Made by a program: the position numbers and the translations under genes
The notes under the pieces: model-generated
What the model was told of the DNA's origin: nothing
Seen by the model: the letters and a program-made list of their open reading frames with translations, nothing else
The model's database searches: none
NCBI RefSeq assembly: GCF_010500615.1
Contig: NZ_JAAGNX010000002.1
Span: 796,990 to 860,989 of the forward strand
Length of the DNA stretch: 64,000 bases
Direction of reading: 5' to 3'
DNA from: Oceanipulchritudo coccoides
Lineage (GTDB): Bacteria; Verrucomicrobiota; Verrucomicrobiia; Opitutales; Oceanipulchritudinaceae
In this document: positions 13,000 to 22,002 of the stretch, piece by piece
Layout: every line of letters begins with the position of its first letter
Numbering within the stretch: the first letter of the stretch is position 1

Positions 13000-13710
13000 A
13001 TGAGCATGAAGAAATCAATCCTTTTTACCCTGCTTGTCTCTATGGTCGTACTCACGCTGGGTGCCGAGACAACCGGACTCCGTTTACTCGATGGTAACCA
13101 GCCCACTTACCCTGAGGAGCTCAGGTTCAGCGGCGAAGACGGTGTCGTTAAAATCCGTGCGACCATTGATACCGAAGGTGATGTCTCGGAATCTTCGATT
13201 GTCTCCGCCACCCATGATGCATTTGGGGAGGCTGCACTTGAAGCTGTCAAAGGCTGGAAATTCAGCCCGGCGATGAAGGATGGCAAAGCGGTTTCCCAGA
13301 CCGTGGTTATTCCTGTCCTTTTCAAGTTGTCGATCAAGGACCGGGTCAATGCCCTCGCTGGGCGGGATGTATTCGTGGACATCGATTCCATGACAGACAA
13401 AATTTACGAGTGGAGCGACGTGAAGAAATACTTCTCCCTTCAGGGCAAGCTCGGTAAAGAAATCCCTTATCCGGAGGAATTAAAGGGCAGTGGCATCAGC
13501 GAGGAAATTGTCATCTTCTGCATACTTTCCCCGGACGGGTATGCCTTGAATCCTGAGATTATTAACATCAAGAACAAGGAGCTCGCTTTACCCGCCATCA
13601 TGCACCTGTCCCAGTTGCGCTTCAGCAGACCCAAGCTGAACGGCAAGCCCATTTACCTTAAGCAGAAAGTAAAGCTCCTCTGCTCGGAAGATGCCGATCC
13701 TGAAAATTAA
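13000..13710 (+). CDS. periplasmic protein with two TonB C-terminal domains
   Basis: A 236-residue exported protein. MSMKKSILFTLLVSMVV and LTLGAE form a cleavable signal peptide. Residues about 33-110 form one TonB_C-type domain: YPEELRFSG, a VxIRATIDxEGDV strand, AALEAVKGWKFSPA. Residues about 150-235 form a second, diverged copy (YPEELKGSG, FCILSPDGYA, LSQLRFSRPK). Classical TonB has an inner-membrane anchor and a Pro-rich linker, and both are missing here. Proteins with only TonB_C domains occur in Bacteroidota and Verrucomicrobiota, but their role is unclear. The ATG at 13006 is an alternative start; the TTG extension to 12979 was rejected. Confidence 0.75.
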   Translation: MSMKKSILFTLLVSMVVLTLGAETTGLRLLDGNQPTYPEELRFSGEDGVVKIRATIDTEGDVSESSIVSATHDAFGEAALEAVKGWKFSPAMKDGKAVSQTVVIPVLFKLSIKDRVNALAGRDVFVDIDSMTDKIYEWSDVKKYFSLQGKLGKEIPYPEELKGSGISEEIVIFCILSPDGYALNPEIINIKNKELALPAIMHLSQLRFSRPKLNGKPIYLKQKVKLLCSEDADPEN

Positions 13711-13756
13711 TTCCGGTCCTAGCCAGCCGAGACAACCCCTTACAATCCAAATCAAA

Positions 13757-15175
13757 ATGAAATATCCAATTCTCATTACCGCGCTTTTCCTGGCCTTCAC
13801 TCATTACATCAGCGGTGCTAGCGAGAGCCCGCCTAATCTGGTCGTGATCCTTGCCGATGACCTTGGTTACGCGGATGTCGGATTCAATGGAGGCACCGAA
13901 ATCCCAACCCCGCATATCGACAAGATCGCTGATCAGGGCGTTCAGTTCACCAGCGCTTATGTCACTTATCCTGTTTGTGGACCGAGCCGGGCTGGTTTCA
14001 TGAGCGGCCGTTATCCGCAACGCTTTGGCTTCGAGCGAAATCCGCAATACAAGACTGAAGATTCGAACATGGGACTGCCGTTGAGCGAGGATACGATTGC
14101 CTCTGCCCTTCAGAAGGTTGGCTACACATCCGGTATCGTCGGAAAGTGGCACCTTGGCGCGCATCCGGATCTGCATCCGCTCAACCGAGGGTTTGACTTC
14201 TTTTACGGTCACCTTGGCGGAGGTCATAGATATTTTCCCGAGGAACTCACGATCAAGGATAGCTACAAGGCAAGGAACGAGATTGAAAGTTACCGGACTT
14301 GGATTCTCCGCAACCACGAGCATGTGAAGCCGACCAAATATCTTACGGATGCGTTTTCTGATGCAGCGGTGGAATTCATCGAGGAGAACAGTGACAGGCC
14401 GTTTTTCCTCTTCCTGTCCTACAATGCGCCGCACGGCCCTCTGCAGGCGACAGAAGAATACCTTGCCCGCTTTCCCAGCATTGAAAACCCAGACCGCCGG
14501 ACCTATGCTGCCATGGTCAGTGCCTTGGATGATGGAGTGGGCCGTGTGCTGGAAACGCTTGCCGCCAATGGGCTCGATGAAAACACCCTCGTATTCTTCC
14601 TCTCGGACAACGGCGGGCCTCAAAGCAATGCTTCCAGCAACGCGCCTTTACGTGGATGGAAATCAGATGTTTGGGAAGGCGGCTGGCGGGTTCCCTTCGC
14701 TCTCCGCTGGACGGGCCAGCTTCCCGTGGGGACGACTTATCGCGACCCGGTCAGTGCCCTCGATATTTTCGCCACTATTGCCGATCTGGCTAATGCCCCG
14801 ATTAATCCCGAAAAGCCTTTGGACGGCGTGAACCTCGTCCCTCATGTGACTGGGAAGAATCCGGAACCCGCCCATGCGGCAGTCTTCCTGCGCAAGTTTG
14901 ATGCGGGAGCCTACGCGGTCCGAAGGGGTGACTACAAAATGGTCATCCCTCCAGGTAAGGAGAAATACCTTGGCCTCTACAATGTCGACCGCGACCCCCA
15001 AGAGCGCTTTAATTTCATCGTTACCAAGAAGGACGTTTTCGATGAAATCGACAAAGTGCGCCTTGAATGGGAGTCTGGGCTGATTGAACCGGTTTTTCTG
15101 GGACTCTCCCAGACCGAGGCTTGGCAGAATCGATTGAAGCGTGCGCGGGAGGCCAAGGCCAAGAAGAAGGATTGA
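13757..15175 (+). CDS. exported sulfatase (formylglycine type)
   Basis: Type I arylsulfatase-fold hydrolase of 472 residues, exported by a signal peptide (MKYPILITALFLAF, cut near SGAS). Metal-binding ILADDLGYADVG follows at 31-42. The active-site cysteine, to be turned into formylglycine, is C74 in VCGPSRAGF, followed by SGRYPQRFGFERN; GIVGKWHLG and FFYGHLGGGHRYFP also match. FLSDNGGPQSN carries further metal and substrate ligands. It likely removes sulfate from polysaccharides outside the cytoplasm. The ATG at 13757 gives an immediate signal peptide; the longer frame from 13691 overlaps the preceding gene and is not credible. Confidence 0.93.
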   Translation: MKYPILITALFLAFTHYISGASESPPNLVVILADDLGYADVGFNGGTEIPTPHIDKIADQGVQFTSAYVTYPVCGPSRAGFMSGRYPQRFGFERNPQYKTEDSNMGLPLSEDTIASALQKVGYTSGIVGKWHLGAHPDLHPLNRGFDFFYGHLGGGHRYFPEELTIKDSYKARNEIESYRTWILRNHEHVKPTKYLTDAFSDAAVEFIEENSDRPFFLFLSYNAPHGPLQATEEYLARFPSIENPDRRTYAAMVSALDDGVGRVLETLAANGLDENTLVFFLSDNGGPQSNASSNAPLRGWKSDVWEGGWRVPFALRWTGQLPVGTTYRDPVSALDIFATIADLANAPINPEKPLDGVNLVPHVTGKNPEPAHAAVFLRKFDAGAYAVRRGDYKMVIPPGKEKYLGLYNVDRDPQERFNFIVTKKDVFDEIDKVRLEWESGLIEPVFLGLSQTEAWQNRLKRAREAKAKKKD

Positions 15176-15282
15176 GTCCTTTTCAGTCTTCATGGGAGAA
15201 CACTCACTCCGAACTGCCTGCACATTATAGAGTTGCAGGGCGGATCGTTGAAAATTAGGTATTTTCCGTGGGGATTTGTACT

Positions 15283-16521
15283 ATGAAAAAATTGCACGCG
15301 ATAATTTTGATTATATTGGCTATTGCTGGTGGAACCTCGGCTATGGCTCAACCTTGGCCGAACGTGGATGCCGCGGTTCAGATGAGTACAGATGGCACAA
15401 CCTGGCTTCCGGTTAGCCCCGGTTTGGTCGAGGTAAGCGCGACTAATGTGCAATTTCGAACGGTCCTTACACCAACGGGTGGTGGGGTTCCGCTTATCAG
15501 TGACACGATCAGCGAATCCTTTCCGACCGGAAGTGGATCTGTGGAGGTTTCTCTTGATCGCAGTAACGACCTTGCCGCCTGGGCGGGAATTGCTCCGGGG
15601 ACGGAAGCAGTTGACCCGAAAATCTTCCTCAGGGTTGAAACCACAGGCGCCATGTCATTGGTCTCTTCAGGTTTATTTACGATGGGAAGCCCTACAGATC
15701 CCGCAGAGCCAGGACGTGATTCAGATGAGATTCCCCATGAGGTGACCTTGACGCGCTCATTCTACATCCAGCAAACAGAAGTCACCAAGGCCCAGTGGGA
15801 TGCCGTGCGCGCACAGGGTGCAGCTTTGGGATTGGGATACACGGATATTTCAGTAGGCCAGAATGGATTTGATGGAACTTCGGGGCTTCCGGTTGGCCAA
15901 AATGGATTCAGCGAAGAGTTCATGCATCCGGTGACGCTTGTTTCATGGAATGATGTCGTGAAGTGGCTCAATCTGCTGAGTGAATTGCACGGGTTGGATC
16001 CATGCTACACTCTTGGAGGTGAAACTCATCGAACGGGTGGAGGCATCCCGCAGTATGAATTTGATAATAATGGGTATCGCCTGCCCACTGAGGCGGAATG
16101 GGAGTATGCCTGCCGGGCTGGAACAACGACTGCCTTTTACAGTGGGCCGATTACTCACACCGGTACATCGCCTCTCGATCCAAACCTCGACTTGATTGGC
16201 TGGTATGGAGGAAACGAAAACACTAGCACACATCCTATCGGTGAAAAGCAGCCGAATGCGTGGGGCCTCTATGATACGTCAGGGAATGTCCTCGAGTGGT
16301 GTTGGGATTTCTACGACTCGTATGATACCGGACCCGTGACAGATCCGGTCGGGCCCGTTACCTCCGGCTTTGGCCAACGCCTTCTCCGCGGCGGGGCGAT
16401 AACCAATGGGATTCTCCTGTTCAATGCTTTCGAGTGCAGGTCTGCCTATCGCAACTTTTCTGCCCCTGAGTTCGGATTCAATTATGCCGGCTTCCGCCCT
16501 GTGCGGACCGTCGTCCCTTGA
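15283..16521 (+). CDS. exported SUMF1/FGE-domain protein, apparently without the FGE cysteine pair
   Basis: A 412-residue exported protein: signal peptide MKKLHAIILIILAIA ending at AMAQ, a 100-residue N-terminal beta-rich part, then a SUMF1 (formylglycine-generating-enzyme-like) domain from about 120. Marks are FTMGSP, TEVTKAQWDAV, YRLPTEAEWEYACRAGT and NVLEWCWDFYD, ending in GFRPVR. True FGE enzymes have two cysteines in an SYCxRYR-like segment near the end; here that region reads FECRSAYRNF with one cysteine, so maturation of the neighbouring sulfatase is doubtful. VGQNGF occurs twice within 25 residues. The start ATG 15283 is preferred over GTG 15268. Confidence 0.85.
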   Translation: MKKLHAIILIILAIAGGTSAMAQPWPNVDAAVQMSTDGTTWLPVSPGLVEVSATNVQFRTVLTPTGGGVPLISDTISESFPTGSGSVEVSLDRSNDLAAWAGIAPGTEAVDPKIFLRVETTGAMSLVSSGLFTMGSPTDPAEPGRDSDEIPHEVTLTRSFYIQQTEVTKAQWDAVRAQGAALGLGYTDISVGQNGFDGTSGLPVGQNGFSEEFMHPVTLVSWNDVVKWLNLLSELHGLDPCYTLGGETHRTGGGIPQYEFDNNGYRLPTEAEWEYACRAGTTTAFYSGPITHTGTSPLDPNLDLIGWYGGNENTSTHPIGEKQPNAWGLYDTSGNVLEWCWDFYDSYDTGPVTDPVGPVTSGFGQRLLRGGAITNGILLFNAFECRSAYRNFSAPEFGFNYAGFRPVRTVVP

Positions 16522-16557: not shown

Positions 16558-18024
16558 CTACTGTCCTGGATTTTCCGCTACAGTCGCGAGCAGTTTCTGG
16601 ATATCAATCTCCGAGGCATCAACACCCGTGAAGTGAGAAACAATCCTTTGCACGGCTGAGGCCACGGCGACCTGTTCGCGATGGGAACTGTCTTTCTTCA
16701 GTTCTTCCTGCTGATGTTCCAGGAGTGCTTTCTGCTTGGCCCCAAACTCCGCCGTCAGGGTGGCTTTTGTATCCATGACAAACGGGTTGTCGACCCCGGC
16801 AAGCTCCTGGAGGGTTTTCCAGAGATGGATCTGGTCGGACATCTGGGTGACAATCGACTGCGAAACCAGCAGGGTGGATTCGGATCCATCTTCCCCGGTG
16901 ATGGTGACTGATGGCAGTTTGCCAATGCGCTGACGTCTTGTCAGTTCCAGATAGGCAGACACGGGAACGAGGTTGCGCGGATCAGTCCCGTCAGGCGGAA
17001 TGGAGAACTCTTTCGCAAAGTCCTTTTCTTCTGCGGCAAAGTGGGCAAAATTGAAATCGGTCGGCCCCTCGGGATTGGCAGAGAGATTAAAGCAGGTAAC
17101 AAAACCGCGGGCGACATCCGGATTATAAACAACTGCTGGAAAGGCCCGTGACCGTACGGCCTTTTGCGCCCTGAGTTGAAAGACGGGTCCATCCTCTCCC
17201 TTCTTCTGGGCAAGGATGGAGAGCAGGGTCGGGCGCGGCGAAGTCAGCCCCTCAAAGAGCCGGTTATGAAAATCGTGCGCGGCCACGCTGCTCTGGAGAA
17301 AATAAACCCCGCGCATGGCGACGGGAATCATTTCAATGGCGAGGGTAGCGGGAACGCTCGGGTCGGAAGTGGGGGAATAGGTTTTTTTCAGGGTTGACCG
17401 CATGGCCACGACCTTGATCGGTTTGCGGCTCTCAAGGAGCGACATGATCTTGCGCAGGACCGGTCCACTATCACTCCCAATCTCGGCGTTCACGATAAAG
17501 GGCGGGCAGACGCTCAACTCGGTGGGGTTCAGGGTGCGCCAAGTGAATTCCTTGAACACGGGGCCATGCTCCGCATCCTTGTATTTCGAATGAATCTCAA
17601 GTTGGGCAATGCGGAGATTGGCAAAAATCCGGGCCATCTCATTGAGATGCTTTTCCGCTTTCTGGTGAATAACGGCCTCATCTTCCTCGAGATCGGCATA
17701 CGGCAATTTATTCGGTGTGGACTGGCAGTACTTATGGAGTTTCTGCAAGTCATCCAGCAGTTGGCTGATCCGTTCGAGACGTTCCTTCGGAATGAGCCTG
17801 CCTGAGCTTCCAAGAACATCTGAAAGGGCGCTCAGGTCGAGGGTCGATGAGCCGAAGGGACCAAGGGATTCCTTGAGCTTCGGTTGCTCATGTCCATGTC
17901 GATGATATTCATCGAGTCGAAGAAGATTCTGGAGACCGCGAATGGATTCATCCAGAGCCTCTTCAAGAGTTCCCAAGTGATGATGCCAGACATCTGTGAC
18001 CGGTTGGCGGATTTGGCTATTCAT
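16558..18024 (-). CDS. unknown protein of the korAB operon, resembling a diverged pyruvate:ferredoxin oxidoreductase domain
   Basis: Third gene of the korA-korB operon, 488 residues, with GGAGA eight bases before its ATG and only 14 bases after korB. The N-terminal 160 residues look alpha-helical and charged (LLDDLQKLHKY, HLNEMARIFANLRIAQLE). Around 173-205 it reads CPPFIVNAE followed by SLLESRKPIKVVAMRS, and around 280-305 AQKAVRSRAFPAVVYNPD. These recall the distal half of the thiamine-diphosphate domain of long NifJ-type enzymes (the AVESGxxPxxRYNP region). The GDGD cofactor signature is missing and there is no cysteine cluster. I infer a non-catalytic partner subunit; this rests on remembered patterns, not a search. 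Confidence 0.6.
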   Translation of the reverse strand: MNSQIRQPVTDVWHHHLGTLEEALDESIRGLQNLLRLDEYHRHGHEQPKLKESLGPFGSSTLDLSALSDVLGSSGRLIPKERLERISQLLDDLQKLHKYCQSTPNKLPYADLEEDEAVIHQKAEKHLNEMARIFANLRIAQLEIHSKYKDAEHGPVFKEFTWRTLNPTELSVCPPFIVNAEIGSDSGPVLRKIMSLLESRKPIKVVAMRSTLKKTYSPTSDPSVPATLAIEMIPVAMRGVYFLQSSVAAHDFHNRLFEGLTSPRPTLLSILAQKKGEDGPVFQLRAQKAVRSRAFPAVVYNPDVARGFVTCFNLSANPEGPTDFNFAHFAAEEKDFAKEFSIPPDGTDPRNLVPVSAYLELTRRQRIGKLPSVTITGEDGSESTLLVSQSIVTQMSDQIHLWKTLQELAGVDNPFVMDTKATLTAEFGAKQKALLEHQQEELKKDSSHREQVAVASAVQRIVSHFTGVDASEIDIQKLLATVAENPGQ

Positions 18025-18038
18025 TTTAGATTCTCCAA

Positions 18039-18992
18039 TCAGACTGCGAACCGGTCGAGGACCCCGTCGAGCCGCTTGATAAAGGTTTCATGATCTGGGC
18101 GCTTGCAACGTCCGGCTCGGATTTCCTCATAGGTGGGAAGTTCCGGATTGTGATAGATCAAGCCCATTGGGGCGGGGTCGACCGTGGCCGCAACGCGCTG
18201 TGCGTCATTCAGGTCGAAGTGGTTGTGCGGCTTGCTTGGCCCGCGCTTGAGCAGTCCGGGATGAACGGGAATGCCACTTTCATTCTCGAGGAAGGTGACC
18301 GGGTAATTCAGGCCGCCCTCGCCAAAGGCACTCGGCATGAAGACCGGACAACGCTGAAGGATGCGGACAAAGGAGAGCCCCTTGTGATCCCACGCCTTTT
18401 CAATGGTCTCATCCAGATGGGACGGGAGCCAAGTGGCGCTTTGTGCAATGAAGGAGACATTGGTCATCCCCGCGACGATACTCAACGGGTTCATCGGGCG
18501 CAGGTAAGTGCCCTTCGGTGTCGTGTTGGTTTTTGTTCCCTCAGGAGAAGTCGGGGAAACCTGCATCTTGGTCAGCGCGTAGACTTCATTGTCCAAGACC
18601 AGGACAACCGCATCAATATTGTAACGGATCGCGTGGAGCCAGTGGTTGCCTCCGATACTGAAGCAATCGCCATCGCCCATCGTCACAATCACCTTCAGTT
18701 CCGGGCGGGCAAGCCGGACACCCGTGGAGATCGGCAAGGCGCGTCCATGGATGCCATGGAATCCGTAGGTGTTCATGTAATGCGGGAGCCGGCTTGAGCA
18801 TCCGATGCCGGAGACCGAGACGACATTCTCCGGATCGATATTGTTCTTCCGCAGGACCCGCTGCAGCGCGGCCAGCACGCCGTGGTCGCCACAGCCCTTG
18901 CACCAGCGCGGCATCTCGGATTCATAATCCTCAAGTGTGTGTGCCCCCATGGAGCAGGTTTCTTCAAGACATTCTTCAATGATCGTGGCCAT
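18039..18992 (-). CDS. korB: 2-oxoacid:ferredoxin oxidoreductase, beta subunit
   Basis: TPP-binding beta subunit, 317 residues, of a 2-oxoacid (probably 2-oxoglutarate) ferredoxin oxidoreductase. The thiamine-diphosphate signature is VTMGDGDCFSIGGNHWLHA; WCKGCGDHG near the N-terminus, the SGIGCSS cysteine and ILQRCP later supply the expected [4Fe-4S] ligands. NEVYALTKMQVSPTS is the usual metal/TPP loop. It decarboxylates 2-oxoacids and passes electrons to ferredoxin, working with the alpha/gamma chain encoded two bases upstream. The choice of 2-oxoglutarate over pyruvate follows from the two-subunit KorAB architecture and is not proven. Confidence 0.92.
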   Translation of the reverse strand: MATIIEECLEETCSMGAHTLEDYESEMPRWCKGCGDHGVLAALQRVLRKNNIDPENVVSVSGIGCSSRLPHYMNTYGFHGIHGRALPISTGVRLARPELKVIVTMGDGDCFSIGGNHWLHAIRYNIDAVVLVLDNEVYALTKMQVSPTSPEGTKTNTTPKGTYLRPMNPLSIVAGMTNVSFIAQSATWLPSHLDETIEKAWDHKGLSFVRILQRCPVFMPSAFGEGGLNYPVTFLENESGIPVHPGLLKRGPSKPHNHFDLNDAQRVAATVDPAPMGLIYHNPELPTYEEIRAGRCKRPDHETFIKRLDGVLDRFAV

Positions 18993-18994
18993 GA

Positions 18995-20896
18995 TTAATT
19001 CCCTTCCTTTTGTGCGGCGGTCTTTTCCTTCCCCGGCTTGGCACCTTCCTCAAGGTGCTTCTGGATTTCGTTATAAATCTCGACCGGCATGAGCGGCCTT
19101 CCCGGTACCTTCGCATAGCAATCAATATCGATCAGCGTTGCTGCGCGGAGTAACCATGCAAGCTGCCCGTAGCGTCGGCTTTCAGCGTTGATGAGGGGAT
19201 CATCCCAGTCATCGCTGTAGTTGAGCTCCACCGTCATCACTTTTTGGAAGCGCGAGAAAATCTTCTTCAATCCTGGTGGAAGCGGGCTGAGAAACTGGAT
19301 ATTGACCGAGGAAACATTGCTTCCCTCGGCGCGGGCCATGTCGACTGCCTCCTCTATTGTCCCACGTGTGCTTCCCCAGCCGATGAGCAACAGATCGCCT
19401 TCCTCAGCACCGTGAATCGCTGGCGGCTGCAGACTCTTCTGCAGGGCGGCCAATTTTCGGCTCCTCATCTGATGGCCCCGTTGGTTGCGTTCCGAATCAT
19501 AGCAGGCCTTGCCGTTGCGGTCGTGGTTGAGTGAAGTGATCACGCCCATGCCGCCGGGTTGTCCCGGAATGAGGCGCTGTGAAAGGCCGGTGACGGGATC
19601 CCAGTCGTAGGGGAGGGCATCGTCTGCCACGGGGCTTAAGTCGAGCGGCGGACGTCGTGGAGTTTTCGATACATCCGGCCTGACAAAAAGTTGCTGCCCG
19701 GTGGCAAGGTTGGCATCCGAAAGCACAATCACCAGCATACGGAATTCCTCGGCGATCTTCCGGGCGGTTGAGAGGATGTAGTAACATTCTTCAATTGTGC
19801 TCGCCGCCATGACGACCTTCGGGGCGTCGCCGGGTGTGCCGTAAAGGGAGTGGAGCAGATCACCTTGTTCGATTTTCGTGGGCAACCCGGTGCTCGGTCC
19901 CCCGCGCTGGACATCGACAATGACCAGCGGCGTTTCGGTCATCACCGCGAGTCCCTGGAATTCTGTCTTGAGCGCCATCCCCGGACCGGAGGTAATCGTG
20001 ATCGCGGTCTTGCCCGCGTACGATGCTCCAAGGGCAACGCCAATGGCTGCGATTTCATCCTCGGCCTGATGGACAAAGCCGCCAAAGTCCTCGAAAATAT
20101 CTGACAGGACGTGTGAGGCGGAAGTCGCCGGCGTGATTGGATACATGGAACAAAGATCAAACCCTGCGGCCACGGCCCCGATTGCCAGCGCGGTGTTGCC
20201 GTTCATCGCGACCATCGATTTATCCGTCGGGAGTGCAGGAATTTCAAAGCGGGTCTCAAAATTCGCCAGTCCGTACTCATAGCCGGCGGTCGCCAGCTTG
20301 ACAGCCGTGTCGACCACTTTGCGGGTCTTCTTCTTGAAAACGTTTCTCACAACCTCCCTGAGGATTTCCAGTTCCTTGCTGTAGAGTGCACAGAGCATTC
20401 CCACCGCGAACATGTTCTTTCCACGACGTGTGTCGTCGACATGCTTCTGGGTCTCTTTCTCGAGCGGCACCTCGATGACCGTTCCTCCTCCTTTCCGGAC
20501 CTGTTCAAGGACCTCGCGGTAGGATTTCCGGTAGGCTTCGACATCATGCGTGGCCCATTGGTCATCTATGAGAAAGAGGGCATCCGGGGCGACCGATTCC
20601 GCCTGCAGGCGTGAAAGCAGTGCCATTTCGTTGAAGGCAAAGACCACATTGGCGAGGTTGCCGACATTGGTCACATTACCGCGCTCGGCCAACCGGATCC
20701 GGTTGCCACTGGCGCTGCCGGTTGTGTGCGGTGGCGGTTGAATCTCCGACGGAATAATTTCCACTGTCCACAAGCCGTTTCCGGCCTTGGCGCAGACTTG
20801 GGCAAAGCTGACTGCTGCCTTCTGGGCGCCTTCTCCGGCGTCACTGACAATTTCAACAATATGTTCCGGTAGACGGACAATTTGGGGGCCGTTCAT
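18995..20896 (-). CDS. korA: 2-oxoacid:ferredoxin oxidoreductase, fused gamma-alpha subunit
   Basis: A 633-residue chain combining the gamma domain (about 1-200, GNRIRLAERGNVTNVGNLA, HVDDTRRGKNMFAVGML) with the pyrimidine-binding alpha domain (from about 225, NGNTALAIGAVAAGFDL then SMYPITPATSASHVL). FVHQAEDEIAAIGVALGASY and TSGPGMALKTEFQGLAVMTE are typical. It partners KorB in coenzyme-A-dependent oxidation of a 2-oxoacid. The fusion order gamma-alpha is usual for KorA of aerobic bacteria. It is the first gene of a three-gene minus-strand operon, with a promoter expected in 20897-21045. Confidence 0.94.
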   Translation of the reverse strand: MNGPQIVRLPEHIVEIVSDAGEGAQKAAVSFAQVCAKAGNGLWTVEIIPSEIQPPPHTTGSASGNRIRLAERGNVTNVGNLANVVFAFNEMALLSRLQAESVAPDALFLIDDQWATHDVEAYRKSYREVLEQVRKGGGTVIEVPLEKETQKHVDDTRRGKNMFAVGMLCALYSKELEILREVVRNVFKKKTRKVVDTAVKLATAGYEYGLANFETRFEIPALPTDKSMVAMNGNTALAIGAVAAGFDLCSMYPITPATSASHVLSDIFEDFGGFVHQAEDEIAAIGVALGASYAGKTAITITSGPGMALKTEFQGLAVMTETPLVIVDVQRGGPSTGLPTKIEQGDLLHSLYGTPGDAPKVVMAASTIEECYYILSTARKIAEEFRMLVIVLSDANLATGQQLFVRPDVSKTPRRPPLDLSPVADDALPYDWDPVTGLSQRLIPGQPGGMGVITSLNHDRNGKACYDSERNQRGHQMRSRKLAALQKSLQPPAIHGAEEGDLLLIGWGSTRGTIEEAVDMARAEGSNVSSVNIQFLSPLPPGLKKIFSRFQKVMTVELNYSDDWDDPLINAESRRYGQLAWLLRAATLIDIDCYAKVPGRPLMPVEIYNEIQKHLEEGAKPGKEKTAAQKEGN

Positions 20897-21045: not shown

Positions 21046-22002
21046 TCAAAGCCAACCGACGACGGCGTTCATGACGTACCCCGAGATGATGATTGCCGCT
21101 GTGGTAACACCGAAGAAAACAGCGATTAGCGAGAGCTTCATGACACGGCGGAGCATAATGGCTTCGGGCAGGCTCAGGGCCGCCATGGCCATCATGAACG
21201 CGAGGGCTGTTCCCAGCGGAATCCCTTTTTCGAACAGCACGACGGCCACCGGGACAATCGCCGCGCAACTCCCGTAAAGCGGGACCCCCAGGAATGTGGC
21301 AATCGGGACGGAAAGGATTCCTGTTTTTTCCATGACAGCATGGATACTTTCCTGTGGGACGTAATTATGGATGATCGCCCCCACACCAACCCCGAGGAGT
21401 ACCCAGAGCCAGATTTTCGCAAGGATGGAGTAGGCTTCGTCCCAGCCATACTTGAGCCGGTCCTTGAAAGCCAAATTAGCTTCTCCTTGGTTTGTCCCTC
21501 CGGACGGATCCACCAGATCATGCTCCAGCTGGCTTTCCAGCTTCAGGCGACCAATCACAGCTCCGGCGGTAATCCCCATGACCATGCCGAGCAGGACGTA
21601 CAGCCCGGTTATTTTCCAACCAAAAGTCCCCAGCATTAGGATGACGAGGTACTCGTTGATGAGTGGCGATGTCACCAGAAAGGAAAAGGTCACTCCAAGG
21701 GGCGCGCCAGCTTTCAGGAAACCAATAAAGAGTGGAATCGAGGAGCAGGAGCAAAAGGGCGTGATGGCCCCGAATGTGGCTGCGACAAAATTTCCGAAGA
21801 GTCCCCCGCGGCTCATCCAGTCCTTCAGCTTTTTTTCCGGCAGGTAGGTCCGGATGACTCCGATGAGGAAAATCAGGACGGTCAGCAGTGAGAAGATCTT
21901 CAGGACATCATAGACGAAAAAGTGGAGCGCCTGCACATGATGAGCTCCTGGATCAAGGCCGAGGAGGCTGTAGATCAGCCAGTCAACAAAGCTCAGCAGC
22001 AT
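21046..22002 (-). CDS. putative permease, ArsP/YraQ family (DUF318)
   Basis: Inner-membrane permease of 318 residues with about eight hydrophobic segments. The hallmark CSCSSIPLF lies at 84-92 and the matching second-half [12 protein letters not shown] at 243-254; TSPLINEYL follows the first. Members of PF03773 include ArsP, which exports trivalent organoarsenicals, but most are uncharacterised. A Cys-rich 64-residue gene lies immediately upstream and overlaps it by ten bases (the permease ATG lies within the last codons of that gene), so both should be co-translated. No ArsR-type regulator is nearby. The transported compound is not readable from the sequence. Confidence 0.85.

Follow-up and report, generated by a model that had tools for sequence, protein, structure and literature searches.

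Directly behind the two subunit genes of a 2-oxoacid oxidoreductase (korA and korB), the 64,000-nucleotide stretch of the Oceanipulchritudo coccoides genome analysed here (the window) carries a third gene, which encodes a 488-residue protein and was given the working name korX. Two-subunit KorABs function without a KorX-like protein, and two-subunit OFORs, which have no internal ferredoxin domain V, leave room for an external ferredoxin in a pocket between domains III and VI (PMC5020499). What does a third protein contribute at this locus?

A PFOR-like protein encoded behind korA and korB

The product of korA matches TIGR03710 OAFO at 2e-151, exceeding the cut-off of the model, and that of korB matches TIGR02177 PorB_KorB at 4e-71 (Table 1). 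The substrate of this KorAB is probably the 2-oxoacid 2-oxoglutarate. As the initial annotation had it, korX sits in a tight operon: it starts with ATG 14 bases past the korB stop codon (18039-18041) and has its own GGAGA site, a plausible Shine-Dalgarno sequence. korA is preceded, at a distance of 149 bases, by a co-directional ArsP_1 family permease gene (21046-22002, minus strand). A sulfatase-like protein is encoded at 13691-15175, beside a protein at 15268-16521 that by eye resembles a formylglycine-generating-enzyme/SUMF1 domain protein (both plus strand).

Table 1. Features of the korA-korB-korX locus (positions in the window).
Feature	Position	Strand	Basis
korA (alpha subunit, gamma domain fused)	18995-20896	-	TIGR03710 OAFO
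korB (TPP-binding beta subunit, 2-oxoacid:acceptor oxidoreductase)	18039-18992	-	TIGR02177 PorB_KorB
korB-korX spacer, 14 bases, TTGGAGAATCTAAA, contains GGAGA	18025-18038	-	
korX (working name; 488 aa; short form of a PFOR domain-VI-like protein, lacking both TPP site and ferredoxin domain)	16558-18024	-	ORF, homology, AlphaFold2 model
korX codons 1-100, N-terminal helices, corresponding to the long-PFOR insert that separates cluster cysteines two and three	17725-18024	-	Alignment, secondary structure
korX codons 180-189, AEIGSDSGPV against PFOR TPP motif GGDGAMFDIG: motif lost	17458-17487	-	Alignments
korX codons 211-221, site of PFOR motif SNTGGQ: lost; weakly aligned, low-confidence loop	17362-17394	-	Alignment, model

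The window protein matches no family in Pfam or NCBIfam, and as the sole query it gave no usable match among PDB sequences. Within the same genome, it matches a 1642-residue PFOR at E values of 9e-10 and 2e-7, and the KorX family profile scores that PFOR at 2e-57. The aligned region of the PFOR starts in a helical insert past the CxxC cluster ligands and extends through domain VI. A likeness to the distal half of long NifJ-type oxidoreductases had been suspected from the motifs CPPF, SRKPIKVV and KAVRSRAFPAVVYNP, all of which are found in the 488-residue protein. The pairwise E values, the family profile and the predicted structure bear out this likeness, which is not due to chance.

An AlphaFold2 model of the window KorX, calculated with 69 family members as the alignment, had a pLDDT of 90.1 and a pTM of 0.79. 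The top 24 Foldseek matches in the PDB were, without exception, PFOR, archaeal POR beta or oxalate oxidoreductase. With VIA-align, the model was superimposed on PFOR residues 813-1170 (domain VI; also of D. africanus, 1b0p) with Z scores of 17.6-17.7 and rmsd values of 4.8-5.0 over approximately 250 residues, on the oxalate oxidoreductase beta subunit with a Z score of 13.9 (rmsd 3.4), and on KorB of Magnetococcus OGOR with a Z score of 7.7. The similarity to PFOR domains that had been named as decisive for the initial reading is therefore present. By these scores, KorX is a PFOR-type beta domain that stands beside a KorB with its own TPP site. For Aliiruegeria (L080), whose korB and korX share a reading frame, a KorB-stop-KorX read-through chain was modelled; KorB, KorX and its ferredoxin each fold well, but the overall pTM is 0.60 and the model gives no information on an interface.

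The cofactor sites have disappeared from this fold, as had been noted for the GDG motif and the cluster cysteines of the window protein. The GDG motif is replaced (Table 1), and SNTGGQ and the four proximal-cluster cysteines are gone. In the family alignment, the TPP motifs (GDG...N and SNTGGQ) and the cluster cysteines are retained in nearly all of the 15 PFORs and in none of the 69 KorX proteins. The columns of the proximal [4Fe-4S] ligands are empty or substituted in KorX, and most long forms (see below) keep one cysteine near the former CxxC site. These results support a description of the window KorX as PFOR domain VI plus the helical insert, without a TPP site and without a cluster. It is hardly conceivable that KorX still works as a TPP enzyme whose cofactor site has diverged: although its fold is that of the TPP-binding domain VI, GDG...N and SNTGGQ are missing from every member, KorX has no domain I partner of its own, and KorB of the same operon retains the TPP motif.

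With long homodimeric PFOR/NifJ (6cin, 1b0p), KorX shares the domain VI fold and a conserved order of residues (Q, A..SR..P....P, NP, W..L). The PFOR of the same genome shares the helical insert with KorX and a C-terminal Fer4_13 ferredoxin with the long form. Unlike these enzymes, KorX has no domains I-IV, TPP motif, proximal cluster cysteines or domain V clusters, and it is encoded behind korAB. The KorB of two-subunit OGORs (Magnetococcus, 6n2n; Sulfolobus StOFOR, 5b46) has a distant common fold (Z of about 7.7). KorB binds TPP and one cluster, whereas KorX is nearer to PFOR domain VI and is present in addition to KorB.

Long and short forms of KorX

A typical KorX is approximately 700-880 residues long and has a C-terminal single-cluster ferredoxin domain (CxxCxxC...C). 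The four ferredoxin cysteines are retained in 63 of the 63 complete long proteins and are absent from the window protein and five other short ones. Pfam Fer4_13 scored above its cut-off in three of the four long members tested (L022, L032 and L080) and slightly below it in the other (L023), and ferredoxin I (1dax) was matched by profile at 6e-7. The mean identity within KorX is 64% in the ferredoxin domain and 36-42% in the body (the dead domain VI); in PFORs, the ferredoxin domain and domain VI are both at about 80%.

In a quick tree, KorX separates from the PFORs as one clade (SH-aLRT 100). The listed orthologs of the window korX are at loci L020, L021 and L025-L029. The short clade (SH-aLRT 100) unites the window protein with its Opitutales orthologs (L025-L028) and the Polyangiaceae protein L029, and it has lost the ferredoxin domain and the N-terminal part ahead of the insert. 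A search of the window's own genome for a separately encoded version of this ferredoxin domain matched only the C-terminus of the PFOR. L029 comes from a MAG whose korABX operon encodes a KorA approximately 80% and a KorX approximately 50% identical to the Opitutales versions, which reflects either horizontal transfer or a binning error.

The short-form korX is under purifying selection: it is open and free of stop codons in six genomes, including the one Polyangiaceae, with dN values of 0.30-0.42 against dS values of at least 1.7 (saturated), and dN/dS is well below 1. Within the window's clade, KorX proteins are 57-59% identical compared with 78-82% for KorA and KorB, indicating that KorX evolves faster. 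This faster evolution and the loss of the ferredoxin and domain-V parts are what a decaying, functionless relic of a long KorX or of a PFOR would show, but we give such a relic very little credence, given the well-folded model and the maintained position behind korB. Pseudogene decay of the window korX was rejected on the basis of the six intact genomes and the low dN/dS.

Distribution and genomic neighbours

A scan of 84,980 species genomes with one conserved peptide as the probe returned 78 loci, 75 of which encode KorX-like proteins by blast criteria, a lower bound because the scan relied on that single peptide. By MAG labels that may be wrong in places, the carriers belong to Pseudomonadota, Verrucomicrobiota, Planctomycetota, Gemmatimonadota, Calditrichota, Cloacimonadota, Ignavibacteriota, Myxococcota and Acidobacteria, with single bins of Actinomycetota and Chloroflexota. 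Cultured carriers are Aliiruegeria, Cohaesibacter, Tropicimonas, Photobacterium lipolyticum and Ramlibacter lithotrophicus. A scan of viral contigs gave no match to KorX, and a plasmid collection gave two partial matches (Persicobacter and Gemmatirosa), the former being a long PFOR within an rnf cluster.

The gene order is conserved, in line with the initial annotation, which would have been contradicted by the absence of the gene from behind korAB. korB lies immediately upstream of korX at 67 of the 71 loci that have enough upstream DNA, as it does in the window. The remaining four are all from Beggiatoales (L035, L050, L052 and L089). At L035, L052 and L089, korX follows nadD- and rsfS-like genes (by eye), and Thiomargarita (L039) retains korA-korB-korX. 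At a Gemmatimonadetes locus, a gene for a 708-residue KorB-KorA fusion (L030:4291-6417) is flanked by korA and a second korB, and korX comes next.

KorX also co-occurs with a particular type of KorA. Among 55 genomes related to that of the window, KorX is present in exactly five, which are the five with a KorA at least 51% identical to the window's. In 17 further related genomes, KorA is at most 42% identical and KorX is absent, and a congener (G003) has neither KorX nor a close KorA; hits of KorX on long PFORs, such as the one in G003, did not enter this count.

The neighbouring genes point to electron transfer. The order nfnB-nfnA-korA-korB-korX, or nfn nearby, was found at 36 of the 45 loci with at least 5.5 kb of upstream sequence. 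rnfB lies near korX at eight loci, followed in L057, L071, L084 and L097 by a PFOR-like gene and rnfC. In the window, neither nfn nor rnf adjoins korABX; the rnf cluster with the PFOR is found elsewhere on the same contig. The intact 1642-residue PFOR, with its extra C-terminal Fer4_13, is encoded in this rnf operon (rnfB-PFOR-rnfC; L005:1660-6588, G000:C2).

Possible roles of KorX

We favour, with a probability of roughly 0.6, the reading that KorX is a third, non-catalytic subunit of KorAB, built on a dead PFOR-type beta domain that attaches to the enzyme and usually has a ferredoxin tethered to it, and that the window's clade keeps the docking body alone. The ancestor of KorX would be the C-terminal portion of a long PFOR, made up of the helical insert, domain VI and a single-cluster ferredoxin; TPP binding and the domain-VI cluster were lost, and the fold persisted. 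Long KorX would use its dead domain to bind the KorAB of one particular two-subunit clade, and its tethered ferredoxin would accept electrons from the [4Fe-4S] cluster of KorB and pass them to Nfn or Rnf, both of which use reduced ferredoxin. KorX probably aids this onward passage of electrons. Running counter to a third subunit are the separation of korX from korB at the four Beggiatoales loci, the faster divergence of KorX than of KorA and KorB, and the ability of two-subunit KorABs to function without any such protein.

The short form lacks cluster-binding residues, so an electron-transfer role cannot apply to it unchanged. Its body would most likely be a docking or scaffold subunit and ease the access of a separate ferredoxin or partner to KorAB. 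The initial annotation had suggested a regulatory or scaffold subunit; because the short window copy is derived, its ferredoxin having been lost, "scaffold" fits it, whereas "regulatory" found no support, and the family resembles an electron-transfer adaptor with a C-terminal ferredoxin.

A regulatory or protective subunit nevertheless deserves consideration as an unlikely alternative, in which the dead TPP domain would bind a metabolite or shield the exposed KorB cluster (for example, from oxygen) and the ferredoxin of the long form would serve as a redox sensor. Dead catalytic folds frequently become regulators, many carriers are aerobic or facultative (e.g. Photobacterium and Aliiruegeria), and the cluster-less short form persists under selection. 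However, the strong linkage to nfnBA or rnf and the ferredoxin domain as the most conserved part argue for electron transfer. The ferredoxin domain and the Nfn or Rnf neighbours would be left unexplained if KorX served the assembly of KorAB or of its cluster and were no part of the mature enzyme. The tight operon order and the loss of all catalytic residues would suit such a factor, but no assembly-specific feature was seen, and we consider it less probable still than a regulator.

If the third-subunit reading holds, KorX may, more tentatively, mark a widespread three-subunit KOR class, in which a pseudoenzyme derived from the C-terminal half of PFOR binds KorAB and links it to Nfn or Rnf through a tethered ferredoxin. 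A soluble ferredoxin enzyme would thereby become a channelled 2-oxoglutarate:NAD(P)+ or ion-pumping complex; the Opitutales clade and the one Polyangiaceae would keep only the dead docking domain. In general, the link from KorAB to NAD(P)H or the membrane is ascribed to freely diffusing ferredoxin. A conserved dead-PFOR subunit that bears a ferredoxin, with its gene placed between korAB and those of Nfn or Rnf, would show how low-potential electrons can be channelled, and KorX would exemplify the conversion of an oxidoreductase domain into a structural subunit.

KorX would fill the same electron-relay role as the delta subunit of four-subunit OFORs (KorD/PorD/OorD, a dicluster ferredoxin), a role that is missing in two-subunit KorAB. 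The architectures are unrelated: in KorX, a single-cluster ferredoxin is attached to a large PFOR-like body that is catalytically dead, this ferredoxin is lost in the window's clade, and no dicluster ferredoxin domain of the KorD/PorD type was found in the window protein with Pfam and NCBIfam. The 2-oxoglutarate:NADP+ oxidoreductase of Azoarcus evansii reportedly consists of KorAB and an extra electron-transfer subunit linking it to NADP. This subunit is said to be a GltD-like flavoprotein, which would make it comparable to NfnA and not to KorX. We found no published description of a KorX subunit in the open PMC literature and no curated family model for it in Pfam or NCBIfam, in keeping with the undescribed type initially proposed. 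KorAB, PFOR domain VI and Fer4_13 are each known; their combination appears to be new. A "PFOR-like" gene co-regulated with dimeric korAB in the Riftia symbiont (PMC11636981) is possibly korX or a relative.

The PFOR-like proteins between rnfB and rnfC at L057:10565-14131, L084:4545-9119 and L097:4584-9035 are 1188-1524 residues long and have lost all TPP motifs and iron-sulphur cysteine motifs; the L071 copy is partly degenerate. They make up a second and larger class of dead PFOR with linkage to Rnf.
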